Assembly (NCBI GenBank): GCA_021773645.1
Contig: JAJFJU010000002.1
Coordinates: 62,001 to 126,000, forward strand
DNA from: Gammaproteobacteria bacterium
Lineage (GTDB): Bacteria; Pseudomonadota; Gammaproteobacteria; HK1
Length of the DNA stretch: 64,000 bases
Direction: 5' to 3'
Positions 935 to 18,126 of this stretch are shown one piece after another (the first letter of the stretch is position 1; each line of letters opens with the position of its first letter). The translations under genes were made by a program, and so were the position numbers. A model generated the notes under the pieces. The model was given only the letters and a program-made list of their open reading frames with translations. It had not been told where the DNA came from and searched no databases.

Positions 935-1010
935 GGCCAGGTAGCTCAGTCGGTAGAGCAGTGGATTGAAAATCCACGTGTCGGTGGTTCGATTCCGCCC
1001 CTGGCCACCA
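935..1010 (+). tRNA. tRNA-Phe (GAA)
   Basis: A 76-nt cloverleaf with encoded CCA. The acceptor arms GGCCAGG and CCTGGCC pair. The D-loop contains AGTCGGTAGAGC. The anticodon stem GTGGA/TCCAC encloses loop TTGAAAA with GAA at 968-970, and the T-arm has GGTTCGATTCC. The 3' part from 963 is duplicated at 18127, so this gene is the attachment site of the neighbouring integrated element, which regenerates the tRNA 3' end. Confidence 0.98.
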
Positions 1011-1011
1011 T
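963..1011 (+). repeat. attL, 49-bp direct repeat inside tRNA-Phe
   Basis: Identical to 18127-18175. It covers the anticodon arm to the CCA end of the tRNA plus one extra T. Identity stops at 962 on the left and 1012 on the right. Confidence 0.93.
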
Positions 1012-1054
1012 AAAAACAACGAGTTAAGGGCGTCTCTTAGGTTTTTGTTATTTG

Positions 1055-1075
1055 GTGTAGACGCTATGTAGACAG
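1055..1075 (+). promoter_or_regulatory. Candidate integrase arm-type site, left
   Basis: A 21-bp sequence containing TGTAGAC twice (1056-1062 and 1067-1073) on the same strand, 11 bp apart. A copy matching at 20 of 21 positions lies at 17989-18009 near the other end of the element. It sits just upstream of the GTG start at 1090. Its role as an integrase or excisionase binding site is inferred from position and repetition. Confidence 0.6.
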
Positions 1076-1089
1076 GCGGAGGGATTCGC

Positions 1090-2214
1090 GTGGTAGCGGT
1101 CGGTAGGGCAGCAACCTCTTGTCTGGGGCGTGCATTTCGCTCCATCGCCTTCTTATTGTCCGTGTCAGGGTTTCTGGCTGTAGTCCCCAGTTATCCAGCG
1201 CACGCCGCGGTAATCGACTATTCCATCGTCGACCTTGGCGCCCTTCCTTCAAATTTCAGTCCGTTCTTCACACCCAATGTGGTGAACTTCTCTGGCCAAG
1301 CTGTGGGTAGCGGTGGCGTCGCCCAAGCCGGGGGAGTTGTATCGAGCATTCTCCATGAAGTTCGTGCCATCAATGACGCTGGATTGGCTGTCGGGAGACA
1401 GCTGGTCTTTGACTCAGGCACGGGGAAAGACATCCCTCATGCATTCGTATGGAGCGCTGATTCCGGCATACAGACAATTGGTCCGGCAAACAGTGAGGCA
1501 TGGAACATCAACGCCCAGGGGTTGGTTGTTGGCGATTTTCTGGCTGGCGACGGAAGCCGTAGGGGTGCTCTATGGGTTCCAAGTAGTACGGGCTATGATT
1601 TCTTTGAACTCAGCGGGACTGGGCCAACAAGAGCGCGAGGCGTTAGTGCATCGGGCATCGTTACTGGCCTCACCGGGAGCGGGACCAGTGTGCGTGCATT
1701 TACTTGGGATCTGAATGGCGATCAGCAGGTTCACACCATCGCCAGCCCAAACGCGACACACGGATTTGCCGTCAACGATTCAGGCCAGGTCAGCGGCCGT
1801 TACAGCAAGGGTTCAGATTGGCAAGCATTCTTCTGGGATCCCGTGCTCGGGTTTTCTGATATCGGCCCCTCCCCCTCTGAAGGCAGAGCCATCAATAATG
1901 CAGGCCAGGCAGTTGGTTTCTTTGACCCCATCGGAGAAGGAGATCGCCCCATCTATCATGATCTCGTCGGAAACGAGGCCGTTTTCGAGACGCTGGGTAG
2001 TCTTGCGAGGGCACTTACCATCAATGAATTGGGCCAGGTGGCTGGAATCGCGCTCTCAGGGAGTGATTGGCATGTAGTGCGCTGGGATCCGGATGGGCTT
2101 GATTTGGGCATTTCCGAGCCTCCTTCACTGTGGTTGATGGGGGCCGCCATATTGCTACTGGTCGGGGTGCGCAACAGGGCTGGAGCAACGCGCCTGACAC
2201 ACAGGGCTGGATAA
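1090..2214 (+). CDS. HAF-repeat secreted protein with PEP-CTERM-like tail
   Basis: A 374-residue protein with an N-terminal signal peptide (hydrophobic core about residues 18-34, ending near PAHA). The body is a series of degenerate repeats of the type (A/W)xINxxGxVxG followed by AFxWD, the pattern of the extracellular HAF-repeat family. I count at least six between residues about 90 and 330. The C-terminus has EPPSLWLMG, a hydrophobic helix and Arg residues. This resembles a PEP-CTERM sorting tail, but it reads EPP rather than PEP and continues about 12 residues further than usual. The GTG start is supported by GGAGGG about 7 bp upstream. It is the first cargo gene inside attL. Function is unknown; export and surface attachment are inferred. 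Confidence 0.7.
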   Translation: MVAVGRAATSCLGRAFRSIAFLLSVSGFLAVVPSYPAHAAVIDYSIVDLGALPSNFSPFFTPNVVNFSGQAVGSGGVAQAGGVVSSILHEVRAINDAGLAVGRQLVFDSGTGKDIPHAFVWSADSGIQTIGPANSEAWNINAQGLVVGDFLAGDGSRRGALWVPSSTGYDFFELSGTGPTRARGVSASGIVTGLTGSGTSVRAFTWDLNGDQQVHTIASPNATHGFAVNDSGQVSGRYSKGSDWQAFFWDPVLGFSDIGPSPSEGRAINNAGQAVGFFDPIGEGDRPIYHDLVGNEAVFETLGSLARALTINELGQVAGIALSGSDWHVVRWDPDGLDLGISEPPSLWLMGAAILLLVGVRNRAGATRLTHRAG

Positions 2215-2217
2215 CAG

Positions 2218-2967
2218 ATGGCTGACTGGCGAACGGAACCCGCGACCGACGCACAACGAGATCTCCTCACGGAGAAAGGCGTTGCGAATCTCCCCCTAGG
2301 GCTTACCAAAGGTGAGGCCTCGGACCTCATACAAAGCACTCTTCCCATTGAGAAACACGTCTTCGAGATACTCAAGTTTTTTAGGGTTTCCGGGGCGGCC
2401 AAGATGTCATTAGCAGATGGGCGCGAGGCTATAGAGGACCTCTTTCAAAATCCTGAGAAGAAAAAACAGTGGGAGAACCGTCCAGCTACCAAGGATCAAA
2501 AAGAGATCTACAAGTTCTTCGCGTTATCCACCCCTCCCGCGCTTACCTGCCAAGACGCGGCCACAATAATAAATGAACTCTTCAAGGATGAGACTAAGGA
2601 AGCCGCCTGGGATGCACGCGAGGAAGTTAAAGAAGAACGGGGATACTGGTTCGAATCCACGCGGGAAGAGATGAATTGTTACTGTGAAGAATTTGAATGT
2701 AAGAAAATCGGCAAACGATTATTTCGCGAGATCGTCGAGGCCATGGAAGAACGTGGCCTATCGCTTGAGGAAATAGAAAGCAACCAAGAGCGATTTTTCA
2801 CTATCGCCCTGGACGCGAACCCATCGCTTCGGCGGGCATCCAGATCAGGTGCAGGCCGTCAACCAACACCAGAGGCAAGGCACGAATCAGGCGGTGAGAG
2901 CACCAGTATTCCATTCTGGATCTGGCTTGTTATTGGTGTCGTAATTCTTGCCTGGCTTGGGGCGTAA
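2218..2967 (+). CDS. Three-repeat protein with C-terminal membrane anchor, unknown function
   Basis: A 249-residue protein starting 3 bp after the HAF gene stop. The N-terminal half holds three related helical units, at about residues 5-40, 45-90 and 90-140. Units 1 and 3 begin with PAT-x2-Q, and all three have a later acidic helix of the form xxAxxLI or EAIEDLF; the second and third end in KKxxW or KEAAWDAR. A charged region with NCYCEEFECKK follows, then a Gly/Ser/Arg linker and a single hydrophobic helix at the extreme C-terminus (IPFWIWLVIGVVILAWLG). The soluble part would face the cytoplasm if it is tail-anchored. No named domain was recognised. Confidence 0.65.
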   Translation: MADWRTEPATDAQRDLLTEKGVANLPLGLTKGEASDLIQSTLPIEKHVFEILKFFRVSGAAKMSLADGREAIEDLFQNPEKKKQWENRPATKDQKEIYKFFALSTPPALTCQDAATIINELFKDETKEAAWDAREEVKEERGYWFESTREEMNCYCEEFECKKIGKRLFREIVEAMEERGLSLEEIESNQERFFTIALDANPSLRRASRSGAGRQPTPEARHESGGESTSIPFWIWLVIGVVILAWLGA

Positions 2968-3150
2968 TTGTGGATGAAGAAAGGTGGATCGGGTTTGTAT
3001 GGAAGGCAACGCCCAGCGCCATGCGCTGACTGAATCCTTGGACATACCGACCTAAGAATCATAGTCGCCTTGCTTCCGTGCGAGGGGCGCTGCCAGAACC
3101 GAGTGTAACTTGCGAACAGAAAACACACCAACGGGTGATCGAAGCAGACC

Positions 3151-4161
3151 ATGAAGCGTTGCGATAGAAAGCGTCGTTTGTATCTACTCCGTATTTCCTA
3201 TAACCGGGAGAAGAGACGCTGCCGTAAGCTACGACCACCGGGCGGACCGCCGACGGGGTACTATCAAATCCATGCTCCACGCTCTGTAGGGGTTGCCGAT
3301 TTAGAAAATCGACGCGCTTTACTCTTATTCCTGCAGAACCTGAGAGAACATGCAGTAAAGCTGCCGGCTCATATCTTGATTGATTTCTCGGGGACTGAGC
3401 AAATGTATGCAGATGGCGCTCTGTTATTAACGGCGGAACTGAGTCGCCTTCTCCATATAGGCTCATTAGATTTGACGCTCCGTTGCCTGCCTTCGCACGA
3501 TACTCGTGTATCTCAAGTTCTCAAGCAGATTGGTGTGTATGAGCTATTACGGTATCGCGGAAAGATAGAGCCAAAGCTAGAGGATGTTATTCATTGGTGC
3601 GTAGCTCAGGGCACTGGGGCCTTGGGAGAGAGATCTGACGATATCTTGGGCCGCTATCACGGCGTAATTCCTGAAAAGCTGAGCGCTGGGCTTTACACGG
3701 GGATTACTGAAGCGATGACCAATACGCGCCATCATGCCTATTTATCGCCTAGGGCCGATGGTCTTGGGAAGTTATCGAGGGGGCAGGAGTGGTGGATGTT
3801 TTCACAGGAACGACTTGGCCGACTGCATGTCGTTTTTTGCGACCTGGGAATTGGCATCCCCAACTCGTTGCCACAAACTAAACCAAGGTTATGGAAGGAA
3901 ATAGTTAGACTTGGGCGTTCGGATGACGGGGCTACCATTGCCGAAGCGGTTAAGGAAAGCCGGACCAGGACGGGAAACCCCTACCAGGGGAAAGGTCTCG
4001 GACAGTTGGTCTCAGTTGTTGAGGAAACCGAAGGCGGTTTTATCCAGATCCACAGCAACCACGGGTGCTACACTTACAGGAAAGGTAGACCCACCATAGT
4101 GAACTACCGTGAATCTATCCTTGGCACACTTATATCCTGGTCGCTCCCAATCAAACGATGA
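3151..4161 (+). CDS. STAS-like / GHKL-ATPase fusion protein
   Basis: A 336-residue protein. Residues about 50-150 have the alternating strand-helix pattern of a STAS-like domain (HILIDFSGTEQMYADGALLL). The C-terminal half is a GHKL (histidine-kinase-type) ATPase: N-box E187-x3-N191-x2-H194, G1 box D231-x-G-x-G, G2 box GKGLG from residue 280, and a terminal GT-x-ISWSLP strand. No dimerisation/phosphoacceptor domain is visible, so it resembles anti-sigma-type or switch ATPases rather than a sensor kinase. The DUF4325 gene begins 4 bp downstream, a combination seen in other genomes. The basic N-terminal 35 residues are unlike the rest, so the true start could be further inside. The biological role is not established here. 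Confidence 0.75.
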   Translation: MKRCDRKRRLYLLRISYNREKRRCRKLRPPGGPPTGYYQIHAPRSVGVADLENRRALLLFLQNLREHAVKLPAHILIDFSGTEQMYADGALLLTAELSRLLHIGSLDLTLRCLPSHDTRVSQVLKQIGVYELLRYRGKIEPKLEDVIHWCVAQGTGALGERSDDILGRYHGVIPEKLSAGLYTGITEAMTNTRHHAYLSPRADGLGKLSRGQEWWMFSQERLGRLHVVFCDLGIGIPNSLPQTKPRLWKEIVRLGRSDDGATIAEAVKESRTRTGNPYQGKGLGQLVSVVEETEGGFIQIHSNHGCYTYRKGRPTIVNYRESILGTLISWSLPIKR

Positions 4162-4165
4162 AAAC

Positions 4166-4489
4166 ATGATGATGGCTCGCAGGAAAATACATCTTGCAGA
4201 AGATTTTTCTCGATATCCGGCTGGACGGGTGAAAACAGATGGCCCCTATAGCGGTGAGCGTTTCAGGGTTGAGTTCCTTGAGCCTGTACTCAAGGAGGAT
4301 GGATGTGCCGACATATACTTGGATGGCGCTCGTGGTTATGGCTCCTCTTTCCTTGAAGAAGCTTTTGGGGGCTTGGTCCGGCAGGGGTATTCAGTTGAGC
4401 AAGTATTAAAAGCTTTCACGATTCATGCCACAGACAAAAGCCTTAAATTCGAGATCCGGGACTACATAAACCACGGTGGAGAGGAGTAA
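4166..4489 (+). CDS. DUF4325 (STAS-like) protein
   Basis: About 107 residues. The block DIYLDGARGYGSSFLEEAFG followed by GLVRQG matches the DUF4325/STAS-like family, in which a strand carrying Asp-Gly-Ala leads into a helix beginning at GSSFLEE. Three consecutive ATG codons (4166, 4169, 4172) can serve as start, just after the ATPase gene stop at 4161. An upstream ATG at 4109 would overlap the ATPase by 50 bp and is less likely. By analogy with SpoIIAA/SpoIIAB-like pairs it probably partners the preceding GHKL ATPase; that is inference. Confidence 0.8.
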   Translation: MMMARRKIHLAEDFSRYPAGRVKTDGPYSGERFRVEFLEPVLKEDGCADIYLDGARGYGSSFLEEAFGGLVRQGYSVEQVLKAFTIHATDKSLKFEIRDYINHGGEE

Positions 4490-4490
4490 T

Positions 4491-4940
4491 TTGACTGATC
4501 TTTCCGCTGAATGGGTTGGGCAGATCGTGTCGTGGTTACTGATTATCCTTGGCTGGAGCCTTATTAATCGCCATCAGAACGATAGGGAAACCCGCAAAGA
4601 AATTCATGAGCGCTTGGACCATTTAAAGAAGACCGTCAAAAACCTGGAAACCCGGGCAATCACCTATCACCTTGAAGAAAATCCCGCCCCTTTAACCTCG
4701 CTAAAAATCAAGTCTACGCTTGAATTATTGTGGTCGGAGATTGCACCATTGAAACTTATTGATTCAGACGATCTCGGTGAATTGATCTTCTATCTTCGCC
4801 GCGACATTACCCTGTGCAATTTTGATGCAGAGAGCCATATCCCATTATCTCCTGATTCGAGACAGTTACAGGAAATTGGAGCTTCCTCACAGAGACTCCT
4901 TACGAAATTGGATACCGCCTTCATTTCCCGTTTCCACTAA
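4491..4940 (+). CDS. Membrane protein, third gene of the GHKL-DUF4325 cassette
   Basis: About 149 residues from a TTG at 4491 preceded by GAGAGGAG with good spacing. A GTG at 4476 would overlap the previous gene and has no ribosome site. One N-terminal transmembrane helix (IVSWLLIILGWSLI) is followed by a charged, probably coiled-coil segment (about residues 30-55) and a cytoplasmic helical domain. No family was recognised. Its tight linkage to the two upstream genes suggests a three-gene unit in which this protein places the ATPase/STAS-like pair at the membrane. Confidence 0.7.
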   Translation: MTDLSAEWVGQIVSWLLIILGWSLINRHQNDRETRKEIHERLDHLKKTVKNLETRAITYHLEENPAPLTSLKIKSTLELLWSEIAPLKLIDSDDLGELIFYLRRDITLCNFDAESHIPLSPDSRQLQEIGASSQRLLTKLDTAFISRFH

Positions 4941-5121
4941 CACTTAGTTAAACCAATTAACCCCGCCCCAGCCCACTCAACGGGTTTTTTGTGGGCCTGA
5001 GAGGCGGCTATATTGAGGTTTTGACGAGCCAGGTGCAGGATGCGGAAAGAATCTGAACAGTGATGGCAGCGAACGGCTACAGCCTGGGGGTATTGGGGGG
5101 GGCGCCTACAGGGAGAGCGCA

Positions 5122-5436
5122 ATGAAATGGATTGTCGCCTGGTTATTGTTGTCGGCCGTGGCTTATTACGGGTGGCTCAAAGAAGACGTGGATCAGAAGC
5201 AGGCCTATTGCGACCACGTCCTGGCCGAAGCGGCAGTGTCGTCTGCCGCGAACAAGAAATTCGGCTGGCCCCTGGAGCTCTCAGACTCGGAGTACGCAAA
5301 GCGCAGCGCCTGGGTGAACGAGAAATTTGCCGAGCTGGAGCAGAAGTTCTCCGCCGAGCAACGGTGGCCACTCGATGAGGTTAATGACGAGGGGATAGCC
5401 AAAGGCTGGCCGGTCAAGTGCAATCCCGGCGGTTAA
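5122..5436 (+). CDS. Small exported or membrane-anchored protein, unknown
   Basis: A 104-residue protein. An N-terminal hydrophobic segment (residues 3-18) acts as signal peptide or anchor. The remainder is hydrophilic, with two cysteines (about residues 30 and 100) that could form a disulphide in the periplasm. The purine-rich GGGAGAGCGCA sits ahead of the ATG. No family was recognised. It stands alone between the GHKL cassette and the two-gene module in the cargo arm. Confidence 0.55.
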   Translation: MKWIVAWLLLSAVAYYGWLKEDVDQKQAYCDHVLAEAAVSSAANKKFGWPLELSDSEYAKRSAWVNEKFAELEQKFSAEQRWPLDEVNDEGIAKGWPVKCNPGG

Positions 5437-5542
5437 CGTCGTGCGTGACCTACAACAAGTGTGGCCATCGGCTTACAAAGATGTGGTGTTTTGCCAAAGG
5501 ATCGAGAGGCGTTTTTAACCAGGGAAATACAGGGAGAGGGTG

Positions 5543-6508
5543 ATGTCAGACTCAATCAATAGAACGCTACGGCTCAAGTCTATTCACTACGCAAGCGGCC
5601 GGCGCAAAGACTTCGAGGCAAGCCCCATTGAGGTCATGCTGACGACGATATTTGGCAAGGCTGGGTCGGTATTGGAGCGGCACCATCCCCCGACTCCTAT
5701 TCTTGAGTCGGATGAATGGCATTGCTTTGCCCATCGCAAGGGCCGGAGAAATGGTGCCTTTGAGTTCGAGTACTGTACCTATCGTCCGGGCAATATCCCT
5801 CAACAGATGACGCTTGATCTGGGTACTGAGGATATCGCTTTGGAAGCACGCCCCATTGTTGACCCGGTTACCGGGGAGCTTTTGGAGCTGGTTTCAGCGG
5901 TGCAGATATTGGCGATAGGGCAGATACTGTTGGTGGAGTCGGTCAAAGGGAACGGTGGCGTGCAAGTACTAAGCCGTTATTTGACCCAGATGATTCGACG
6001 CTATGTAGACAAAACACATCCCCGGCTTTATTTAACAGATATCGGTACGCACAGTCTTCGCGAGGCTCTGGTCCGTGGCGGCGGGGCTGTCAGCGTGGTT
6101 GCGAACATGGTGCATGTCGCTCGGCCCAACAAAGCTATTTTCGGTTCACGACTTTCAACGGCCCGCCAAGGCATTCGCAATACGGAGCTTTTCCGTGCCG
6201 AGTGGCGCAGCAAGGGCGGGCTCAATGATGATGACGTTCTTAAGGCGTTCGAGGAATCTGAGTCTGAGGTTGGCATCCAGGATGCTATTATCTATCTTAA
6301 GAACGGAAATCGCCTGAAGGATTTGGATCATTACGTGGTAAAAAAGGCGGTTAAGGTTCGTGATATCGGGCACCGCAACCCAGCTCGTGGAGAGGTGCGG
6401 TACGAGCTTCGACAATATCGAGAAGAACTCAGTTCTGTACAGGATGGTCATAGGGTGATTAACGAGCATGGAATGATCGTTATGCGACACCGCGAGGTAG
6501 ATGAGTGA
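5543..6508 (+). CDS. Soluble first gene of a RexAB-like two-gene module, unknown family
   Basis: A 321-residue soluble protein with no signal peptide or membrane segment. It begins with a beta-rich N-terminal half and has a central helix-forming segment after ILAIGQILLVESVKGNGG. The C-terminal third is charged (RDIGHRNPARGEVRYELRQY). ATG 5543 is preceded by GGGAGAGGG; an in-frame GTG at 5540 is the alternative. Its stop overlaps the start of the membrane protein gene (GTGA), so the two are translationally coupled. A soluble protein of about 300 residues followed by a small four-helix membrane protein is the layout of phage lambda rexA-rexB. I see no convincing sequence match, so the comparison is only architectural. 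Confidence 0.7.
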   Translation: MSDSINRTLRLKSIHYASGRRKDFEASPIEVMLTTIFGKAGSVLERHHPPTPILESDEWHCFAHRKGRRNGAFEFEYCTYRPGNIPQQMTLDLGTEDIALEARPIVDPVTGELLELVSAVQILAIGQILLVESVKGNGGVQVLSRYLTQMIRRYVDKTHPRLYLTDIGTHSLREALVRGGGAVSVVANMVHVARPNKAIFGSRLSTARQGIRNTELFRAEWRSKGGLNDDDVLKAFEESESEVGIQDAIIYLKNGNRLKDLDHYVVKKAVKVRDIGHRNPARGEVRYELRQYREELSSVQDGHRVINEHGMIVMRHREVDE

Positions 6509-7116
6509 TTGCATGGACACATAGATATTTCCCTGACGATTGGCTGGCGGCAAGTGATTCTGCTAGCCATCTAAAAGGCGAGATTCTGCGTACGCCTTCG
6601 GCACGGCCCCGGCACTGGATAGGCGCCGGGGTGCCGCTTGCGGTGGGGCTCCTTATTGGGTTGTTGATAATGGATTCTGCGGGCGCGGCATATGTCCAGG
6701 GAGTGCTCACATTGGCGAGTGTGCTCGCCGGGTTTGTCATCACCCTCATGCTCTTTACCGGCCGGGTCACCGGGACGGAAATCCTGGACTATGAAACCAC
6801 GCTGGAGTACGTGGGCAAGATCCGCTATCTGCTGGGATCTCAGATTTTTAGCATGGGTGTGTTTGGAAGCATTGCCGTATTCGCGCTGGCGTGGCTCGTG
6901 GTGGTTGACCCACAAACACCGGGGCTTTGGGGCGAGGTTATCATTCTACTGATGACCGGGTTGCTCGGCCTGGGCCTTGTGCGTGCCGTTTTGCTTCCTT
7001 TCCAGATCTATGAGATCCACAACTTCAGTCTCGACGCGCTGGTAGAGGCAAAGATTCAGGCCACGAACGAGACCGTGTCCAAACTACATGAGTCGGGACG
7101 CCGCGCCAGCGGCTAG
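6505..7116 (+). CDS. Four-helix membrane protein, partner of the upstream soluble gene
   Basis: A 203-residue protein starting at GTG 6505, overlapping the upstream stop by 4 bp. Four hydrophobic helices are visible at about residues 38-57, 66-85, 112-133 and 141-160. N- and C-terminal soluble tails flank them; the C-terminal tail (about 40 residues) is helical and charged. The topology fits an inner-membrane effector or channel controlled by the soluble partner, as in RexB-type abortive systems. That is inference, and no family was recognised. Confidence 0.7.
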   Translation: MIAWTHRYFPDDWLAASDSASHLKGEILRTPSARPRHWIGAGVPLAVGLLIGLLIMDSAGAAYVQGVLTLASVLAGFVITLMLFTGRVTGTEILDYETTLEYVGKIRYLLGSQIFSMGVFGSIAVFALAWLVVVDPQTPGLWGEVIILLMTGLLGLGLVRAVLLPFQIYEIHNFSLDALVEAKIQATNETVSKLHESGRRASG

Positions 7117-7266
7117 GCCCCCGTCGTGGGGTTGTATGCCCACCCACCTCACAGCCCCTGTAAGCCCACAAATCTCTTAATCCTGGGCCATAGTCGTGCC
7201 CGGGGCTGAGTGGTCATCTGTACGCCAGCATCAACCTGGCGAGAGGGGCTTACCCATCGCCTTGAG

Positions 7267-7479
7267 CTATAGCCCCAGTGCCCGCTGATAGAAACGCGTC
7301 AACAGTCTACTAACACGATCTCTGTCACTCCTAGAAAGGCGCCGCATCTTCTCTAGGATCTCCTTACAATCCTCGTCCTCGGCAGCCGACCGAACCGTTG
7401 GCTCACTCTTGGGCATATGGTTCAAAGCGGCTTCCTCATTAGGGCTCGGGAATTTGATGACTGCGGGCTTACCACTCAT
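7267..7479 (-). CDS. Small hypothetical protein (70 aa)
   Basis: A hydrophilic 70-residue protein whose ATG overlaps the stop of the upstream 109-aa gene (ATGA), which indicates translational coupling. The C-terminal half is a predicted amphipathic helix rich in Arg (RRLSRSDRDRVSRLLTRFYQ). No family was recognised. Confidence 0.5.
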   Translation of the reverse strand: MSGKPAVIKFPSPNEEAALNHMPKSEPTVRSAAEDEDCKEILEKMRRLSRSDRDRVSRLLTRFYQRALGL

Positions 7480-7805
7480 TTCTTAACCTCCGCTTCCTTG
7501 GCGGCATTGCCCTCCAACTCTTCAATGCGTTCGGCCGATGGGTGATGTAAAACCGCTTCGGCTTGTTCGATCAATCCATCGACGCACCAGAGGGCGTTCA
7601 TAACGTCTTCGTGTCTGATAGAGAAACCCATCTTAAGGTCCGCGCCATCGCCTTCAAGTAGAAGCACGACTGACCTTGCCCTGACTAAGAGCGCATTCAA
7701 TACGCTGGTATTAACCTCTCTTGGCGCTTCATCGGGAATGCGGAAATACTCTTCAGGGGAACTGGCCTCGGCCAGGTTTTCAGCTGTGGGATGAGAAATA
7801 GACAT
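7476..7805 (-). CDS. Small hypothetical protein (about 109 aa), DUF3077/DUF6124-like at best
   Basis: The ATG at 7805 is chosen because AAGGAG lies 7 bp upstream on the minus strand; a longer frame to 7847 lacks such a site. The protein has a central helical part (SVLNALLVRARSVVLLLEGD then MNALWCVDGLIEQAEAVL). This vaguely recalls small Pseudomonas proteins of the DUF3077/DUF6124 type, but I cannot assign it firmly. It forms a two-gene unit with the 70-aa gene, transcribed toward the cargo arm. Confidence 0.55.
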   Translation of the reverse strand: MSISHPTAENLAEASSPEEYFRIPDEAPREVNTSVLNALLVRARSVVLLLEGDGADLKMGFSIRHEDVMNALWCVDGLIEQAEAVLHHPSAERIEELEGNAAKEAEVKK

Positions 7806-8097
7806 GGTGGTACTCCTTGCGTCGGTTGTAGGAACCGCCACCACCAAAGGTGGCAGGCCGTACAGGTTAGTAGTACCGCACCAAGGAGCGGCCGCCCGAA
7901 GGCGCCTATACGGCCCGCCATAAATCGCAGACGATAAAAAACGCGCTCAGGGTAGGCACGTTTGGTGTGCCTTGGTTTCGGGCTACTAATCCCGATCCCG
8001 GATTGTGCCGAGACGTTTGCAGAGTAGGTGAGGGAAGCAGGGGCGTCAAGGTTGCTTTAAGCTCTAGCGATAAAGGCATGTGCATAAGGAATTAATA

Positions 8098-8406
8098 ATG
8101 CGCCAAGCACTGAAAAATTACGCGATGACAGGTTTCATTTTCGGGGCTGGGATGGCCGCAATTAGGGCGTTATTCGACGGCAACATACCGCTCGTTTCTG
8201 CCCTGGTAATAACGCTCTTGTTTGGCGTTGGCGGAGCTGTTGTTGCCACACTCTCTGGTGGGGCGGTCGAACTTGAGCGGGCATGGAGAAGGAAGAGTGG
8301 GCGCGAGGAAATACCAACCCCCACGCCATTTATAAAACTGCTTGCTGCAGCAACAATTATCACCGCCGCGGGGTTCGGGGTCGTGTTCCTGACGTTTGCT
8401 CCGTAA
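8098..8406 (+). CDS. Small membrane protein, unknown
   Basis: About 102 residues from the ATG at 8098, which has AAGGA 7 bp upstream; the GTG at 8080 would place the ribosome site inside the gene. Three hydrophobic helices are seen, at about residues 8-25, 33-55 and 80-100, with a basic loop RAWRRKSGRE between the second and third. The 3' end overlaps the convergent ejection-like gene by 47 bp. No family was recognised. A role as small phage or cargo membrane protein is possible but unsupported. Confidence 0.5.
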   Translation: MRQALKNYAMTGFIFGAGMAAIRALFDGNIPLVSALVITLLFGVGGAVVATLSGGAVELERAWRRKSGREEIPTPTPFIKLLAAATIITAAGFGVVFLTFAP

Positions 8407-10366
8407 CTGTCTCCGGTAGCCTATCCTCCGGGCTCTCTATGAAGTCCGCTGCCGTTGCTACTCCCGAGCGCAGCATCAGCATGCTAACGACGTTGATCGC
8501 GGCTTCTGAGTTCTTTGGTAGTTTCCGTAATTCCGGCAACACTCGCATGGCATCCGGGCTGGTTATTATCTGTGCCATCTTTTCCTTGAAATCCTCGCTC
8601 CGCATATTGATCCAGAAATCCCGCAATCGGGTAGTTCGGGCAATAATGGGCGAAGCCTTGCGCTGAAACGCCTTCTCTCCCTGCTGGGCAAAATGGGTGA
8701 CGGACTGCCCACCGGAAGCGCGGGAAGTGGCTTGCAACACATCAAGCAGATTGGCAAAACTACGAAAGCGCTCTTCGCCCATGGCAGCCTTAATGTTGGC
8801 CTTCAGCCTGGGGGTTCCAAACACTGCCTTGCGGAAGTTTCCAGCGGCATTGGAAGCGGCCCCCACGGCGGATTCCTGGGATGATCGCTCCCACGCCAAC
8901 CTCAGGTACTGGTTCAGCCCTTCTTCCCAGGCTTTTGGATCGGCCTTCTCAATCACACGTCGGGCAAAGGCAAGTTCTCCAGATCGGACATCGGGCGAGA
9001 ATATACGGCTGACAGCGCTCCGGGCTTTTTCGTTCTTGATTTTTGACACCATACCCACCAGGCTGTTTTTCACCTGGTCGACAGCAGGGCTTAGCTCGGC
9101 AAAGGTTTTGTTCGCTGCCGCGAAGTCCGGGCTGGCTTCGTTTAACTGCTGAAGCAGCCGCTCCTTAATCAGAGTCAGATTACGGCGTGAGGTATTCCCT
9201 ACGGCGCTATCTCCCGTCTTGCTTAGCATTTCATCGATAGACAGCTTGGCCTGCTGAAGCCCCGCTACGGTTTTATCGGGGGCTTTCGTCTTGCCCGTAT
9301 TAAACAGAGTCACGCGCACTCTTTTCAGCGCTGAGCGGATCGGGCCTTTGGCAGACGCCAGCATGTCATCCACCAGGGCGATAACGGGCTTGGCATCCAC
9401 TGTAACGCCGCTTTGCCTTGCGGCATCGAAGAGGGGGGCCGCTGCCTCGCTACGCACGTCCTTGGCGGCCTGGAGGCCCGCTGAGGCGGCTTTCTGTAGA
9501 TTGTCGCCCACTACGTCCAGCGGGGCAGTTCCGGGGATGTGACGCTCGATGGCTTCAGGGATCTGTTTGGTTGCCCGGTTTTCAAGGAAATCACCCATGA
9601 CATCCCCGGCCGGGCCGTGCGTTTTGCTCAAGGCTAATTGATCGCCTTTCAGGCTGGCCAGGTTGGTGGCCTCTGCCGGGGTTAGATTGATGTTTTCCCG
9701 CTTGGCAATGGCCATCAGGCGCTCGGCCTTTGCAGTGTCCACCTTTGCGATATCCGAAGCTACACGCCGCTGAACCACGTTCTTGGAAAGCAAACTGCCC
9801 AGCTTGAATCCCACAGCATTTACAGCCCCTTCGCCTGCAATATCCGCAACATTTCCGCCCATTGTCTGAGGTTCATCCAGTAGTGCGTTGGCGGCTACTT
9901 TTCGGAGCGCTTCGCCTCCAGCTCCTCCGAGCCCTGCCCCCAAGGCTCCAGTCGGCACGCCAATTCCCAAAGCCCCGGCAATCGGGAGTCCACTCTCCCC
10001 TACAAACTTTCCAACGTCTGAGGCAATTCCTGATTCCTCCCGAAACAGATTGCCATCTGCACCCATGTACACAATATCGCCATTCACTACCCCGAAGCGT
10101 TTAATCGCCTCCTCCGGAGGCATGGTGGGGAAGCGCTTGGCCGCAAAGTGCCTTATCTGGGTATCGGTATCATCTGCCAAGTTGGCGGCGGCAGAGCTGA
10201 AGAATCCAGCAGGGTTAGGCGAGTCGAATACCTCCCGCGGAGCATCAAGCCCTTGAGGCCGTCCGGTAGTGGTTTCAAAGGCACCGGTAGCGCTCCCAAG
10301 ATCGGGCCTTTGGGCGGCTGATATGGTGCGCTCTGATTGCCGTGCTACTCGTTCCCAGTCTGTCAT
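8360..10366 (-). CDS. Large phage virion/DNA-ejection-like protein
   Basis: A 668-residue Ala/Gly-rich protein. A glycine-alanine hydrophobic stretch at about residues 145-170 (GLPIAGALGIGVPTGALGAG) resembles the membrane-active segments of podovirus internal ejection proteins. It is followed by long helical, charged regions (about 195-580). It overlaps the upstream 423-aa gene by 4 bp, so the two are co-translated. In podoviruses such proteins sit inside the capsid and are injected to form a conduit for DNA. No enzyme motif was seen. The assignment rests on composition and pairing rather than a specific motif; a different structural role is possible. Confidence 0.55.
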   Translation of the reverse strand: MTDWERVARQSERTISAAQRPDLGSATGAFETTTGRPQGLDAPREVFDSPNPAGFFSSAAANLADDTDTQIRHFAAKRFPTMPPEEAIKRFGVVNGDIVYMGADGNLFREESGIASDVGKFVGESGLPIAGALGIGVPTGALGAGLGGAGGEALRKVAANALLDEPQTMGGNVADIAGEGAVNAVGFKLGSLLSKNVVQRRVASDIAKVDTAKAERLMAIAKRENINLTPAEATNLASLKGDQLALSKTHGPAGDVMGDFLENRATKQIPEAIERHIPGTAPLDVVGDNLQKAASAGLQAAKDVRSEAAAPLFDAARQSGVTVDAKPVIALVDDMLASAKGPIRSALKRVRVTLFNTGKTKAPDKTVAGLQQAKLSIDEMLSKTGDSAVGNTSRRNLTLIKERLLQQLNEASPDFAAANKTFAELSPAVDQVKNSLVGMVSKIKNEKARSAVSRIFSPDVRSGELAFARRVIEKADPKAWEEGLNQYLRLAWERSSQESAVGAASNAAGNFRKAVFGTPRLKANIKAAMGEERFRSFANLLDVLQATSRASGGQSVTHFAQQGEKAFQRKASPIIARTTRLRDFWINMRSEDFKEKMAQIITSPDAMRVLPELRKLPKNSEAAINVVSMLMLRSGVATAADFIESPEDRLPETVTEQTSGTRPRTPRR

Positions 10367-11634
10367 TGCAGATACCCCTCGCTGCGCAATATCTCCAGCG
10401 TCTGCTCTTCGGAATACCCCATGCCAGATAACGTATCGCCTCGCTCCTGAAGGTTGGGGATGCTATCCAGGGGAGTGACTTGAATGAACTCTTGGAAGGC
10501 CTCCTGGTTCGTCTCTGGATCAATCCCCACTTTTAGAGCTGCCGCCAGTCGTGCGTTCAGCCTGCGATACAGCGAACGGGCAAAATCCACCTTGGCTTCG
10601 AACGCCTGCGGCGCATCTTCATCAGAGAAGGTGATGCTCTTGATCTCGGCCATCTCCTTTTCACCGCCCGCCACGCCCGTGGCCCACTTACGGAAGGTCA
10701 AAAATTCCCGACCAACAGCGCTCAGGAAGGCTTGTCTGCGCTGTGAAAACTCGTCTCTCTTGGCGGGGTCCAGCTTGTTCATCACGTCCGCCACTGTGTT
10801 CGAGATCCCGCCCTTGAAAGACAAGAACTCCGGCTCGTACAAATCTTCGATTTGGCTTAATGAATCAAGGGCCTGTTGCCTTTGAACAAATGATCGGGTG
10901 AAGGCTGTTTTTGCACCCTTGGGCAGATCGCCAGTGAACACGCTCACGCTGCTCGCTCCCGACTTGGCCAGGTCTTGTTTCTGAGTAAAGGCCTCTGGTG
11001 ACAGCAGATTGGGATCGGGTCTTACCGCCTCGGGGAACGCCCGTTCACCACTGTCCACAAAACGATTGAAGCCACCCGCATCCTTCACTATTTTGCGATC
11101 ACCCCCTATCTTCTCGATGGTTGCCTGTGCAGCTGGGCTGGTTTGGATTTGTTGCCCCGTGCCTTTGTCGAGCACCAGCCCGCCAGAAGTCTGCGTGAAA
11201 GATTCTAGGGGTTGCTCTCCGGCTACCCGCAAGAACATATTTGCAAGACCACGATCACCATCTTGAAACGCCCCCACCGCATCATTCTTTCGGAACTGAT
11301 CGGCAATGCTGCCAATCCCGCCCGTGACCGCGGTTGCGTTGCCACCACCCGCCTGAATCATCCCGGCAATAGCAGCGGATGTTTCCGGGGTAATCTGTGG
11401 GAAAACACCCGAGCCCTGGATTGAATTTTCAAGCCCCCTGTTGGCGTCGAGTTTGATTTGTCCGAGATCAGCATCAATCCCGGTCTTTCGAGCCTGGGTA
11501 TGCAACAGGCGCTCTTTAGCCAGCCGTTGAAGTTCGCTTTCCTGCGCGTTCTGCTTGGCTGCGCGGCCACCGCCGGCGAAAGCTTGCGCCAGCTCGCCGA
11601 GCCCCCGATTTAAGCTCTGAATTCCGCTTTTCAT
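10363..11634 (-). CDS. Phage internal/ejection-like protein
   Basis: A 423-residue protein. The N-terminal GIQSLNRGLGELAQAFAGGG and the Gln/Ala/Arg-rich helical segment after it are typical in style of phage internal or injected structural proteins. A central domain (about 235-350) and a C-terminal segment with the helical motif MGYSEEQTLEILRSEGYL follow. The stop overlaps the start of the 668-aa gene (ATGA). It lies 27 bp after the 118-aa gene. No catalytic residues were recognised. Confidence 0.55.
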   Translation of the reverse strand: MKSGIQSLNRGLGELAQAFAGGGRAAKQNAQESELQRLAKERLLHTQARKTGIDADLGQIKLDANRGLENSIQGSGVFPQITPETSAAIAGMIQAGGGNATAVTGGIGSIADQFRKNDAVGAFQDGDRGLANMFLRVAGEQPLESFTQTSGGLVLDKGTGQQIQTSPAAQATIEKIGGDRKIVKDAGGFNRFVDSGERAFPEAVRPDPNLLSPEAFTQKQDLAKSGASSVSVFTGDLPKGAKTAFTRSFVQRQQALDSLSQIEDLYEPEFLSFKGGISNTVADVMNKLDPAKRDEFSQRRQAFLSAVGREFLTFRKWATGVAGGEKEMAEIKSITFSDEDAPQAFEAKVDFARSLYRRLNARLAAALKVGIDPETNQEAFQEFIQVTPLDSIPNLQERGDTLSGMGYSEEQTLEILRSEGYLQ

Positions 11635-11661
11635 ATCGTATTACCTCTCGTTGCCGGCCCG

Positions 11662-12018
11662 TCAATGAAGCATTACTTCTTCGGCCCGTTTGCCATCCTT
11701 TTGTTCGTCGTCTGTCCCCAGTGTTGTTGCAAGCACCTGTGCGATCTCATCGAGACGGCCTTCCAGGTATTCACATGTTCTCGCAGTTTCCAGGGTGGTC
11801 ATCGTGATACTGGCCACATCTCGAAATACGCTGTGGCGTTGTTCCTCGTCAGTGAAGGTCACTGTGGTCAAGAAGGTGCGCGAAATGCATTCCATGGAGG
11901 AGCGAACCAGGCGTAGACGCGTCTCCATCAATGCGTGATGCCCCGCGATAGCCTGAAGCGCACCGGTTGCCTGTTGAAGCTTCAGAATATCGCCTGGCCC
12001 TAGAATTGAAGTGCTCAA
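11662..12018 (-). CDS. Phage-type hypothetical protein (118 aa)
   Basis: An all-helical 118-residue protein with an acidic C-terminal half (LEGRLDEIAQVLATTLGTDD). It lies between the small-terminase-like gene and the two ejection-like genes, on the same strand, so it probably belongs to the packaging/structural block. No family was recognised. Confidence 0.5.
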   Translation of the reverse strand: MSTSILGPGDILKLQQATGALQAIAGHHALMETRLRLVRSSMECISRTFLTTVTFTDEEQRHSVFRDVASITMTTLETARTCEYLEGRLDEIAQVLATTLGTDDEQKDGKRAEEVMLH

Positions 12019-12081
12019 CAGCTCAGTTCCACGGTTAGATCCACGGCATCACGAAGCGCAAGAAAGGTCTTTACCTTGTAC

Positions 12082-12600
12082 TCAATCATCCTTCTCGCCC
12101 CGCGTGCGCTTATATTTCGCCGCCTTTTTAGTCCATTCCTCGACGCTCTTGCATTTCTCGGGCATACGAATGACGCCTGGCATGGCATCACCCTGCAAGT
12201 TGTGATCCTGTTGGTCGCGCCACAAATCGCGTTGGCGGTTCTTGAGCCAGAAGATGCAAGCAGTCGTGTCTGGGGGGTAATGCTTGGTCGTCGCCGCCCG
12301 CGTAATGTCGCCGTCCTTGCCGCAGAAAATCTTTTCCTCGGGGTGGGAATACCCCAGCGCTCTGCCAAACAATGACTCCGCTACTTTTTCGTCCGCTTCA
12401 CGTTTCCCGGCCTTTAGGGCCCCAAGAAACTCGGGGTGCCCGTTCTTCCAGTTATCGATAGTCGTCGTGGTTACGCTGAACAATCCCGCCAGGTCTTCAT
12501 CGATGGCGCCCAGCAAACACATGAGCCGGGCCTGCTCCGCAAACTCCTTGCGATAGGCTGACGGACGGCCCCGTTTGGTCTTTGTCTTGTGCTCAATCAC
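12082..12600 (-). CDS. Terminase-small-subunit-like HTH protein (second type)
   Basis: A 172-residue protein starting at GTG 12600, overlapping the upstream TerS stop by 4 bp. The N-terminus begins with the basic GRPSAYRKEF patch. A helix-turn-helix follows (DLAGLFSVTTTTIDNWKNGH), then a helical region and a conserved KHYPPDTTACIFWLKNR block. This combination is common in phage proteins annotated as terminase small subunit or DNA-packaging HTH proteins. TerS recognises the packaging site and loads TerL. No TerL gene is present in the element, so a helper enzyme would be needed. Confidence 0.65.
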   Translation of the reverse strand: MIEHKTKTKRGRPSAYRKEFAEQARLMCLLGAIDEDLAGLFSVTTTTIDNWKNGHPEFLGALKAGKREADEKVAESLFGRALGYSHPEEKIFCGKDGDITRAATTKHYPPDTTACIFWLKNRQRDLWRDQQDHNLQGDAMPGVIRMPEKCKSVEEWTKKAAKYKRTRGEKDD

Positions 12601-13070
12601 GTGCTTTTCCGCGCCTGTTTTTCTGCCTTCACTTCCTCAGCCCATGCCTCGACGCTCTTTGATTGCTCTGGTAGCACCACTACGCCCATAAACCCATCAG
12701 CATTCGCTCCAAAATCTCCCTTGCCGGAATAGTGCCCGGCCGCCTTCCCACGCAGCTCCTCGGCCTTGATGGCAGCAGTAAATTCTCCTCGTTCCTCCGC
12801 GCCATCACGCAACTTAGCCAGCTGAGTAAAATGTTGTTCCAAGGTACATTGCGCCGCCTCCACTACCGGGGCACGCAGAGCCTCAATCTGTGCCGTGATC
12901 TTGCCGTTCCCCATCAGCTCATGAGCCTTACGGCTGATCGTCTCTGGCTTCATGTTTTCCGCGTTGTACGCTTGCCGATAGGCTTCGCTGGCATTGCCGG
13001 TTTCGAGGTATGCAAGGATAAAGTCTCCCTGCTTGGCTGTTAGCTTTATCGTGGGAGATTGAGTAGCCAT
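12597..13070 (-). CDS. Terminase small subunit (Terminase_2-like)
   Basis: About 157 residues from the ATG at 13070, which overlaps the dnaB stop (TGATG). The longer frame upstream reads into dnaB and is rejected. The motif LTAKQGDFILAYLETGNASE followed by AYRQAYNAENM is the conserved N-terminal HTH of the Terminase_2 family, which binds the phage pac or cos site. The C-terminal sequence ends in a Lys/Glu-rich helix. The adjacent gene encodes a second, different TerS-like protein. Confidence 0.85.
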   Translation of the reverse strand: MATQSPTIKLTAKQGDFILAYLETGNASEAYRQAYNAENMKPETISRKAHELMGNGKITAQIEALRAPVVEAAQCTLEQHFTQLAKLRDGAEERGEFTAAIKAEELRGKAAGHYSGKGDFGANADGFMGVVVLPEQSKSVEAWAEEVKAEKQARKST

Positions 13071-14431
13071 CAGGCGGCAAAGCCTCGATGCTTGGCGAAT
13101 GGCTGGGGTTGCCGTTCTGGAGTCGGTGGGATGGTGGAACGAAAGCGCACATGCTCTGCATCGAAAGCGAGCCACACTTTGCCGATGGGGCCGTTACGCT
13201 GCTTGCTGATGATGAGCTCCGCATAGCCTGGGTAGGCGCTTGGGCTTTTGTACACTTCATCCCGATAAAGAAACATGATCAGATCTGCATCCTGCTCAAT
13301 ATCTCCACTATCACGCAGATCTGACATTACCGGGCGCTTATCGGGGCGGTTCTCCAGGCTGCGGTTAAGCTGGGACAGGGCGAGCACCGGCACCTTTAAT
13401 TCCTTCGCCATGGCCTTCAAATTGTGGGATATGTCACCTACCATCTGGGTGCGGTTGTCTCCGGTACCAGTGGCGAGCTGCAGGTAGTCCACCACCACCA
13501 ACGAAAGGGCATGTTTGCGGTGCACCTTGCGTGCCCTGGAGCGCATCTCCAGCGCCGTGAGCCCAGCGGTTTCATCAATTACGATGGGGGTATCGTGGAG
13601 CCTAGCCGTTGCTTTGGTAATGGCTTCCCAATCCTCGTCTAAGAGCTCACCGGTACGGATCTGCTGGAATGGGATGTCCGCGGCATTTGAGATCAGCCGG
13701 TTGGTCAATTGCTCCCGTGACATTTCCAAGCTAAACACCAGCACTGCACCAGTCTCGGCAACGTCGGTGGCCATGTTCATGGCGAGTGCGGTTTTCCCCA
13801 TGCTTGGGCGTCCGGCAAGAATGCAGAGATCGCCGGGGTGGAGCCCTGCGGTTTTCTTATCGAGATCAAGGAAGCCGGTCGAGATTCCGGGGAGCCCACC
13901 ATGGGATCTTTCATCCAGGTCTTGCAGGCAGTCAGGGAGAATATCGGCCAATGTGGTTGGTCCTTCTCCGTCCTTTTCATACTCCACACCACAAACGAGG
14001 CTTTGCACCTTGTCCAGCATTTCCCTTGTGTCGCCGCCTTCAACAATGATTGCCTGCGCCTTCATCGTTGCGTTTAACAGCCGCCGTTGCGTTGCCCTGC
14101 CTCTGACGATGTTGGCGTAGGCCACGATGTTCGAGCATCCGGCAGTGTTCCTGGCAAGGTCGCCAAGGTAGACAAGCACTTCACCGTCCACCGCCAGCGA
14201 TTTACGTTCACGCAGTTCGTCCGAGAGCGTGAGAATATCCATTGGCCGCCCAGCGCTGGTCATTTCCAGCATATGCCGGTAGACCGTGATGTGTTCTTTC
14301 CGGAAGAAATCTTCAGGACGGGCAATGCCAAGTACATCATCGAGCGATGATGGGTTGAACAGAATGCCGCCGATAACGCCTTGCTCGGCTTCGATGCTGT
14401 GCGGGATAGGCTTAAGCTGAACGTCGTTCAT
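13070..14431 (-). CDS. Replicative DNA helicase, DnaB family
   Basis: A 453-residue DnaB-type hexameric 5'-3' helicase. It has the N-terminal DnaB domain (residues about 10-110), Walker A AGRPSMGKT at 206-214, Walker B VVVDYLQL, and the SQLNRSLENRP and DLRDSGDIEQDAD motifs. ATG 14431 has GAGGGG at good spacing; an upstream in-frame start at 14443 is less likely. The gene overlaps its upstream neighbour by 20 bp and its downstream TerS by 1 bp. It differs from the host helicase in being embedded in the element, so it probably drives autonomous replication after excision. Confidence 0.95.
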   Translation of the reverse strand: MNDVQLKPIPHSIEAEQGVIGGILFNPSSLDDVLGIARPEDFFRKEHITVYRHMLEMTSAGRPMDILTLSDELRERKSLAVDGEVLVYLGDLARNTAGCSNIVAYANIVRGRATQRRLLNATMKAQAIIVEGGDTREMLDKVQSLVCGVEYEKDGEGPTTLADILPDCLQDLDERSHGGLPGISTGFLDLDKKTAGLHPGDLCILAGRPSMGKTALAMNMATDVAETGAVLVFSLEMSREQLTNRLISNAADIPFQQIRTGELLDEDWEAITKATARLHDTPIVIDETAGLTALEMRSRARKVHRKHALSLVVVDYLQLATGTGDNRTQMVGDISHNLKAMAKELKVPVLALSQLNRSLENRPDKRPVMSDLRDSGDIEQDADLIMFLYRDEVYKSPSAYPGYAELIISKQRNGPIGKVWLAFDAEHVRFRSTIPPTPERQPQPFAKHRGFAA

Positions 14432-15287
14432 ATTGCCCCTCAATCACTTTTGCGAAGTTCTCAGTTTTTAGCAGCCACGGAAGGTTTGCTGTCCAGTCAC
14501 GGTTATTCTCACCGTTGAGATGTGGGCACTTTCCGACGTAGGTGAAAAATTTCTTCCACCTGGCAATGGTTGTGAATTGGATCATCTCGCCTTCGACCTC
14601 GTATTTGTCTTTCATGCGAGCATTGAGAGCAGCGTTTCGTGCCTTGCTCCATGCGCGTACTCGGGGAAGGTCTGGTAAGAGCTCGTGATAGCAGTCGATC
14701 ACTTCCTCGTGTGACGGTCGGCTAGCGGCTTTGTTGCTAACGACAATGCTTTTATCTTTTACTTGGTTCTGGTTCTGGTTCTGGTTCTGGTTAGGCGCGA
14801 TTTGCGTTACATCGGGGGGTAATGTCACGGGGTCTTGTGTGACATTCGCCGTTTCGTCACGGTTTTCGCGTGACATTGCGGGAGTTGTCACGTTTTCGGT
14901 ATTTTTTGCTCTATGCCGCCGTTGGCGTTCTGCATCCTTCTTTCTACGGTCTTCCCTGGTTCCTTTTTCCCGGTACTTTTCGACGTTCACCACTAGCCAC
15001 CCGCGGTTTCCGGCATGCCATTCAACTTCCGTCACAGGGACAATTCTTCTGCCTTCGTAATCCGGAGAATCGCTGTATGGATCGGGGAATCCCAGCCGGG
15101 AGATCGCATGCTCAACAACCTCCAATGGAGTCCCTGTTCTCATGGCTAGCGTGGGTGGCGTGTAGTCAACGATCCCGTCTTCGTTGGCAAGGATCACCAT
15201 ATCCATGAAAACGAGGCGAACTAGGTGGCCTTCGGCAATGATCGTGGAAGCGTAGATGGCCTCAAATATCTTTCCGTAGACGGCCAT
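14412..15287 (-). CDS. Phage-type replication protein, DnaB partner candidate
   Basis: About 291 residues from ATG 15287, preceded by AGGAGGGGAA; the longer frame to 15353 lacks support. The N-terminal domain (residues 1-120, MAVYGKIFEAIYASTIIAEG) resembles the winged-helix part of phage replication initiators. A basic linker (RRKKDAERQRRHRAKN), a variable region with an alternating Gln-Asn tract of ten residues and a C-terminal domain (about 200-285, RWKKFFTYVGKCPHL) follow. The gene overlaps dnaB, so I infer an origin-binding or helicase-loading role like lambda O/P. The repeat tract lies at about 14764-14792. Confidence 0.65.
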   Translation of the reverse strand: MAVYGKIFEAIYASTIIAEGHLVRLVFMDMVILANEDGIVDYTPPTLAMRTGTPLEVVEHAISRLGFPDPYSDSPDYEGRRIVPVTEVEWHAGNRGWLVVNVEKYREKGTREDRRKKDAERQRRHRAKNTENVTTPAMSRENRDETANVTQDPVTLPPDVTQIAPNQNQNQNQNQVKDKSIVVSNKAASRPSHEEVIDCYHELLPDLPRVRAWSKARNAALNARMKDKYEVEGEMIQFTTIARWKKFFTYVGKCPHLNGENNRDWTANLPWLLKTENFAKVIEGQYERRSA

Positions 15288-15525
15288 TTCCCCTCCTGTG
15301 GAGACCCATTTCCCTTTCCATTTTCCGCACTTGACGAGGGGAGCGAGCCGCAATTTCCATCTCCATATCCCAGAGAGCCGCTCGCCTAGCCCGAGGGCGC
15401 TGGGCAGTTGTGAGGCGGTCGAGATGCATGGATATGCGTTGCTCTCGCTCCTCGTCCTGATGAACCTGCAGTGTCGGGAAGGGTGTCACCTTGGGGCACT
15501 CGATATTTACGGGAATGCGTTCCAT
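15262..15525 (-). CDS. Small basic phage-type protein (87 aa)
   Basis: An 87-residue Arg-rich protein whose C-terminal half is helical and charged (RRAALWDMEMEIAARSPRQV). It lies between the AlpA-like gene (8 bp upstream) and the replication gene (overlap of 26 bp). No clear ribosome site precedes the ATG at 15525, so translation would depend on coupling. No family was recognised. Confidence 0.45.
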   Translation of the reverse strand: MERIPVNIECPKVTPFPTLQVHQDEEREQRISMHLDRLTTAQRPRARRAALWDMEMEIAARSPRQVRKMEREMGLHRRGNGRLRKDI

Positions 15526-15533
15526 GGCTAGGT

Positions 15534-15758
15534 CTATGCTGCTGCCGACTCATGGGGAATATTAAGCACCTCCTGGGTGGTGCTCGTGCGAAGTCCATAA
15601 GACTCGAACCACTTGGAAAGCTCGTCTTCGGGATAGCGAACGCTGTGCCCAATCTTTCGATATGGAGGGCCACCGCCTGCCCAACGTTTGCGCTGGAACC
15701 AGTACACGCTGTAGCCACAGATTTCAGCAGCCTGTTTTTCAGTAAGTAACCTGACCAT
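15534..15758 (-). CDS. AlpA/excisionase-like HTH protein
   Basis: A 74-residue protein with the AlpA/MerR-like winged-helix pattern. It has LLTEKQAAEICGYSVYWFQR as helix-turn-helix, the GGGPPYRKIGHSVRYPEDEL wing and terminal helix. Proteins of this type act as excisionases or activators of integrase in P4-like elements and satellites. It is the first gene downstream of the repeat-rich region 15821-15981 and faces the replication genes. It probably controls the element by binding there. Confidence 0.85.
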   Translation of the reverse strand: MVRLLTEKQAAEICGYSVYWFQRKRWAGGGPPYRKIGHSVRYPEDELSKWFESYGLRTSTTQEVLNIPHESAAA

Positions 15759-15820
15759 TTGAGCCTCCCTTTATGAAACTGTTGGAGGGAAGCCTGCCAG
15801 AGAGAGAAAGCCTCTCGATA

Positions 15821-15981
15821 CCCCCCTTATGCCGGTATAGGTAGGGTGATGCCGGCATAAGGGGGGTGGTTAAGGTTGCTGCACAGGAGGGGAAACAGGC
15901 GGAAATCAGTTAGTTGCTGTTTAAACAGCCGAAGGAAAAAATATTTTCACATGACCCCGACCGATGCCGGCATAGGGGGGG
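15821..15981. promoter_or_regulatory. Operator/iteron-like repeat region ahead of the AlpA-like gene
   Basis: CCCCCCTTATGCCGG at 15821-15835 and its exact reverse complement at 15852-15866 form a 15-bp inverted repeat. A third copy of the right arm, slightly changed, occurs at about 15963-15981 (GATGCCGGCATA then a G-run and TGGTT). A 14-bp perfect palindrome GCTGTTTAAACAGC lies between them at 15916-15929. The region separates the AlpA-like gene from the 242-aa gene. It could be an operator, an origin of replication, or both. Confidence 0.65.
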
Positions 15982-15990
15982 TGGTTTTGG

Positions 15991-16719: not shown

Positions 16720-16726
16720 GCGCTCC

Positions 16727-18001: not shown

Positions 18002-18009
18002 GTAGACAG
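17989..18009 (+). promoter_or_regulatory. Candidate integrase arm-type site, right
   Basis: Matches 1055-1075 at 20 of 21 positions and contains TGTAGAC twice (17990-17996, 18001-18007). It overlaps the integrase start codon. It lies about 120 bp inside attR, while the left copy lies about 45 bp inside attL. Confidence 0.6.
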
Positions 18010-18126
18010 TAATGCTCCAATAGATTCCAAAAGTATGGCAGGCATTATAACTCGTAACCTTCTGTTACGGCACGTATTTTCAAAGTGTTTCCAAATGGGT
18101 GTCAATGGATAAAAAGGTGCTATTTA

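Follow-up and report, generated by a model that had tools for sequence, protein, structure and literature searches.

A recurrent operon on mobile elements pairs a STAS-GHKL kinase-like protein and a DUF4325 protein related to VapS with a single-pass membrane protein

The genes considered here lie on the forward strand of the window, by which we mean the whole 64,000-nucleotide stretch of gammaproteobacterial DNA that was analysed. Gene A (3151..4161, 336 aa) encodes a STAS-GHKL serine-kinase-like protein, gene B (4166..4489, 107 aa) a STAS-like protein of the DUF4325/VapS family, and gene C (4491..4940, 149 aa, TTG start) a single-pass membrane protein that is a putative effector. The positions of the open reading frames bear out the coordinates and the tight spacing reported in a first-pass annotation of the sequence, with exactly 4 bp between A and B and 1 bp between B and C. 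The start of C is most likely the TTG at 4491, which has an AGGAG motif 4 nt upstream within the 3' end of B; a GTG at 4476 is a possible alternative without a visible ribosome site. Promoter and terminator scans of the trio performed no better than on shuffled sequence, and PADLOC and NCBIfam searches of the three genes returned nothing beyond a weak DrmA match to the ATPase-like part of A.

The trio is carried by an integrated element of 17.2 kb (1012..18175). Its left boundary, attL (963..1011, forward strand), is a 49-bp repeat corresponding to the 3' end of a tRNA-Phe gene (935-1010), and a perfect 49-bp copy of it forms attR (18127..18175, forward strand). A phage integrase gene (phrog_1; 16727..18001, reverse strand) adjoins the right repeat, and the element also encodes a DnaB-like phage replicative helicase (13070..14443, reverse strand). 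In two genomes of the same genus the site is empty: the left and right flanks are joined, and their matches overlap by exactly the 49 repeat bases. The trio therefore resides on an inserted element that is absent from these relatives, and the earlier suggestion that it is element cargo is confirmed by the att repeats together with the empty site. Gene A was found neither in 2 other genomes of the genus nor in 14 of the family, and the G+C content of the trio is 49% versus 56% around the element. The first gene inside the element, beside attL (1090-2214), encodes a secreted protein whose sequence is repeat-like and whose tail is PEP-CTERM-like, and the gene just upstream of the trio (2218-2964) a 249-aa protein with a C-terminal membrane tail that belongs to no family. 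Downstream of the trio, positions 5540-7116 hold an overlapping same-strand pair, encoding a protein of 322 aa and a membrane protein of 203 aa, that has no accepted Pfam or PADLOC match and looks like another cargo module.

Neither A nor C has an accepted Pfam family. Over its GHKL part the A-family profile matches SpoIIAB and RsbW (E 0.002-0.01), and over its N-terminal STAS part it has a weak match to SpoIIAA (E about 0.03). An AlphaFold model of A (pLDDT 91) comprises a basic N-terminal helix, a beta-alpha STAS-like domain and then a GHKL domain, and Foldseek searches with this model matched the P4 domain of CheA and SpoIIAB. The N box is formed by E187, N191 and H195, the G1 box by D231xG233xG235 and the G2 box by G280xG282; among 65 relatives E187, N191, D231, G280 and G282 never vary and G233 and G235 hardly do, and H195 is likewise invariant or close to it. 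Further invariant or near-invariant residues in the same relatives are W214, S302, G325, T326 and W330, and residues 214-215 constitute a WW motif. Position 279 is Q in the window protein and R in 95% of the family, and residues 1-40 have a family median net charge of +11. In a two-component histidine kinase the GHKL domain would follow a DHp domain with a phosphoacceptor His, whereas in the model of A it follows the STAS-like domain. The first-pass annotation had described A as resembling anti-sigma kinases, with all three boxes and no dimerisation/phosphoacceptor domain, and the conservation, profile matches and model agree with it on each point. Judged from its sequence, A is a predicted protein kinase with a STAS-GHKL architecture and belongs to the SpoIIAB/RsbW type. 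For retrieving further loci, the A profile of 65 sequences was too diverse for scanning, and a scan of genome contigs with A as a single sequence gave no matches; the B profile did retrieve loci.

Protein B matches Pfam DUF4325 (PF14213) with an E value of 2.6e-9, and the best PDB match of its profile is VapS (9z7o, E 0.024). Its earlier assignment as a STAS-like DUF4325 protein is upheld. DUF4325 is the only domain that Pfam finds in its 107 residues, with no HTH or winged HTH. A pair of serines, S60/S61, sits in GYGSSFLEEAFGGL, and either residue is a putative phospho-acceptor. Among 144 non-redundant relatives, 143 have Ser at position 61; at position 60, 130 have Ser and 2 have Thr. The FLEEAFGG core of B served as the search pattern, so its own conservation is by construction; the serine pair lies outside that pattern. 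VapS S48, whose position was derived from the length of the chain and the numbering in the published work, aligns without gaps with S60 of B, and the invariant residue is S61.

The DUF4325 family as a whole is patchy, occurring in 26 of 299 Pseudomonadota genomes, and several of its members stand in other surroundings. Vibrio phage VH-8 (L012, 3980-4312) has a lone DUF4325 gene without A or C, which could be a phage-borne antitoxin mimic directed against systems of this kind. A Pseudomonas silesiensis plasmid (L006, 4001-4321) carries an orphan DUF4325 gene near an ORF for a Cas3-like helicase, likewise without A or C. A Vibrio parahaemolyticus locus (L009, 4013-4735) has no kinase, and the gene after DUF4325 encodes a small protein that differs from C, has two hydrophobic stretches and may represent another type of effector. 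Finally, seven loci (L175, L177, L183, L184, L191, L192 and L199) encode a GHKL ATPase and a C-terminal DUF4325 in a single protein, some of them with an N-terminal HTH-like part.

Protein C has one hydrophobic segment, at residues 7-26 (Kyte-Doolittle 1.55), and its model (88 relatives, pLDDT 96) is all-helical, with a helix spanning residues 4-61 and three more helices packed as a bundle. Thus, the membrane helix described in the first-pass annotation stands, and the coiled coil that it proposed gives way to a helical bundle. A hydrophobic 19-mer (at least 1.2) near the N-terminus is present in 87% of C proteins versus 27% of other ORFs of similar size, and G21 and T107 are conserved in 90%. 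Across 157 members of the C family, the 15 residues that follow the hydrophobic stretch contain 4.5 Lys/Arg on average, compared with 0.5 before it. This bias predicts an N-out, C-in orientation, and the positive-inside pattern, seen in 96% of the 157 proteins, places the soluble part in the cytoplasm. No PIN domain was matched by Pfam among 92 C proteins, and the Pfam, PDB sequence and fold searches found no similarity to known toxins. The ten Pfam families that were matched, including a SAVED-fused 2TM family and phage shock protein B, were rejected as chance because each was matched by one member, and the PDB sequence matches were set aside as coiled-coil artefacts. When the model was compared with solved (PDB) and viral folds, nothing scored below 1e-3; the best fold matches were a viral protein of 159 aa without a name and four-helix bundles of a generic kind.

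Scans with the B profile yielded 318 genome loci and 224 viral loci, 542 candidates in all, and the best 80 of each (160) were read. Among the 151 DUF4325 loci of this best-160 set that have enough flanking sequence, A, B and C are intact and in order in 136. In the remaining 15, A is broken or missing with B and C intact ten times, C is broken with A and B intact once, and four show neither. Searches that start from the other two proteins lead to the same arrangement. With C alone as the query over 12,566 ORFs, all 85 matches of a single phmmer round, and 158 of 161 after four rounds, lie directly behind B. Retrieval by the A motifs gave 38 viral loci; B is present in all of those with room for it, and C is matched in all with room except two nearly identical ones. 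The proposal that the trio is a conserved three-gene unit is thus sustained, with the third gene kept in 159 of 171 loci in the C-family search. Because the same three genes recur in the same order in about 150 other loci, we consider the trio to be more than a chance juxtaposition.

As for where these loci lie, the first-pass annotation had raised chromosomal metabolic operons as a setting that would speak against its reading; the homologues are found in prophages, plasmids and islands instead. By tblastn, plasmids carrying the trio were found in Vibrio, Acinetobacter, Novosphingobium (where the third gene is unannotated) and Leptospira; the trio also occurs on a Pasteurella prophage plasmid and in the genome of Marinobacter phage AS1 (AS1_41-39). 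The same three genes occur, unnamed, directly after the CI repressor of Francisella phage KIRK as Fhv_0046-0048 (PMC7924643), where Fhv_0046 was noted to resemble an AS1 protein, Fhv_0047 to be a DUF4325 protein and Fhv_0048 to have a TM helix. The KIRK and AS1 genes are the trio described here, and only their annotation had been described previously. In one prophage (L117 and L132, 498-3324) two cassettes that differ in sequence stand tail to tail, B-C on the forward strand and C-B-A on the reverse strand, perhaps representing two antitoxin/effector specificities.

The closest precedent for this arrangement comes from Chambers et al. (EMBO J 2026; PMC13373217), who described an ssDNA-activated STAS-GHKL kinase, CapK, that phosphorylates the STAS protein CapS, together with VapKSC, in which a similar kinase controls the STAS antitoxin VapS, which in turn holds the PIN toxin VapC; phage protection by vapKSC was shown as well. 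The VapS stretch in PDB 9z7o matches Pfam DUF4325 with 51.6 bits (E 7.9e-14), so B and VapS belong to one family. With VapS as the query, neither plasmids nor viral contigs yielded a relative, and VapK references were therefore drawn from two divergent loci of a wider DUF4325 sample, L180 and L182, which are kinase-DUF4325-PIN operons. The A profile aligns with the VapK of L182, a locus that carries both DUF4325 and PIN Pfam matches, over 278 columns covering both domains (hhalign E 2.3e-8, prob 95). Like VapKSC, the trio is a three-gene operon in the order kinase, STAS protein, third gene; its first gene encodes a STAS-GHKL kinase without an HTH, homologous over its full length, and its second a DUF4325 protein with a conserved Ser in the same place. 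It differs in that the third gene encodes a single-pass membrane four-helix protein rather than the PIN RNase VapC, and in that A has a basic N-terminal extension and the invariant WW motif. Because its third gene is not VapC, the trio falls outside VapKSC as that system is defined. A tree of 38 kinases, unrooted and with several long branches, separates the trio kinases from the VapK/PIN group by a well-supported branch (98/93). VapK and CapK contact ssDNA through an aromatic residue of the STAS domain (VapK F54, CapK W68); an alignment of A with two VapK-like rows, neither of them the reference VapK or CapK, showed no clear common aromatic. The WW motif and basic N-terminal helix peculiar to the A family suggest that its signal may differ from that of VapK and CapK.

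The likeness to CapK and CapS lies in the pairing of a STAS-GHKL kinase with a STAS substrate that has a conserved Ser, CapK/CapS being an ssDNA-activated kinase system in an immune context. SpoIIAB/SpoIIAA and RsbW/RsbV share with the trio a GHKL serine kinase, with the N-box residues E and N, and the STAS fold of the substrate. The trio differs from them in having a membrane protein in place of a sigma factor or PP2C phosphatase and in its location on mobile elements. No cognate sigma factor or phosphatase lies in or beside the trio in the window, and neither is recurrent among the flanking genes shown (one sigma-factor match in 137). The DefensePredictor study (PMC13092281) reports a predicted system with an HATPase, and literature searches, which covered a minority of subscription papers, found no paper naming the trio. 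The trio is widespread and unnamed in the searchable literature, and the kinase/STAS logic proposed for it has been demonstrated experimentally in VapKSC. The first-pass statement that no named system has this trio thus survives for the exact combination in the libraries searched, although it overlooked VapKSC as a close known system.

Taken with this precedent, the data make it somewhat probable, in our view, that the trio is a mobile, often prophage-borne kinase/antitoxin/membrane-effector module built like VapKSC. By that analogy the kinase would be the sensor and the third protein the output. In a resting cell, B would bind the cytoplasmic bundle of C and keep C inactive. Infection or DNA damage would activate A, possibly via ssDNA as in CapK, and the activated kinase would phosphorylate the S60/S61 pair of B. 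Phosphorylated B would then release C, which would act at the inner membrane to cause growth stop or cell death and might thereby protect the prophage's host population from other phages. Against this reading, few clear defence genes flank the genome loci, where PADLOC matches are scattered. The predicted topology of C puts its bundle within reach of B and argues against C as a sensor of the outside. The earlier proposal of a switch that senses infection or stress at the membrane is modified accordingly: with the folded part of C facing the cytoplasm, acting at the membrane is likelier than sensing there. Ten loci have lost A yet keep B and C, which suggests that C stays harmless without A and agrees with a trigger role for A. 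The overall pattern of breakage (A ten times, C once, and B never in A-retrieved loci with room) is what a model with A as the trigger and B as the restraint on C would predict, although the counts are small, some of the broken genes come from draft assemblies, and the asymmetry between A and C is not significant once gene length is allowed for.

Alternatively, the trio could be a partner-switching sensor in which C anchors or feeds A and the output of the A-B pair lies elsewhere, in a sigma factor, a regulator or a transport system. The lone TM helix and bundle of C could serve as an anchor or sensor, SpoII and Rsb modules, which share the kinase and STAS folds of the trio, control transcription, and the C model finds its best PDB matches (E 5e-3) in histidine-kinase sensor domains built as helical bundles, QseE and KinB among them. 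Those domains are periplasmic, however, whereas the C bundle is predicted to be cytoplasmic, and the matches are weak. No fixed fourth gene was found to go with the trio, and in the closest relative studied by experiment the output is encoded by the third gene (PMC13373217). We regard this alternative as unlikely.

Plasmid-borne trios adjoin toxin-antitoxin genes of the PemK/MazF, RelE and HepT/MNT types, as might be expected of a conserved, non-defensive addiction module that stabilises plasmids and prophages. Plain addiction needs no kinase trigger, however, and VapKSC protects against a phage (PMC13373217), so that we find this explanation improbable. We are more doubtful still of a prophage life-cycle regulator that would sense host DNA damage or superinfection and control the phage's own repressor or lysis timing. 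Many trios lie in prophages beside CI repressors; phage repressors are the commonest neighbours in viral contigs, followed by integrases and portal proteins, repressors and integrases also flank the genome loci, and the trio adjoins a repressor in AS1, the Pasteurella prophage plasmid and KIRK. A repressor-adjacent position is, however, also usual for phage-encoded defence genes, and the trio is found as well on plasmids without adjoining phage lysogeny genes. The idea that B is a repressor released through phosphorylation by A, as CapKS works with the same kinase and STAS classes (PMC13373217), is exceedingly unlikely. CapS represses a downstream immune operon and carries a winged HTH at its C-terminus, and CapK carries an HTH at its N-terminus; B has no such domain, no immune operon regularly lies downstream, and the next gene is nearly always C.

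Returning to the module built like VapKSC, a broader proposal can be made, which we hold tentatively and at rather less than even confidence. C may represent the first member of a new family of membrane toxins with a single transmembrane pass, silenced by direct binding of a STAS antitoxin and freed by a serine kinase sensing infection or DNA damage. The trio would then represent an abortive-infection system without a name that is widespread in prophages, both within Pseudomonadota and outside it. Its kinase-STAS pair would be a general trigger to which different effectors can be attached, be they a PIN nuclease, a membrane protein or transcription. As a compact operon, the trio makes this mechanism directly testable with few mutants. 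More generally, DUF4325, a large Pfam family of "unknown" function, is now tied through VapS to phosphorylation-controlled antitoxins, and a partner kinase and effector are predicted for hundreds of its loci (542 candidates, the best 160 of them read). On our reading, the 2026 VapKSC finding is extended from one effector to at least two, which supports a modular trigger/effector design.
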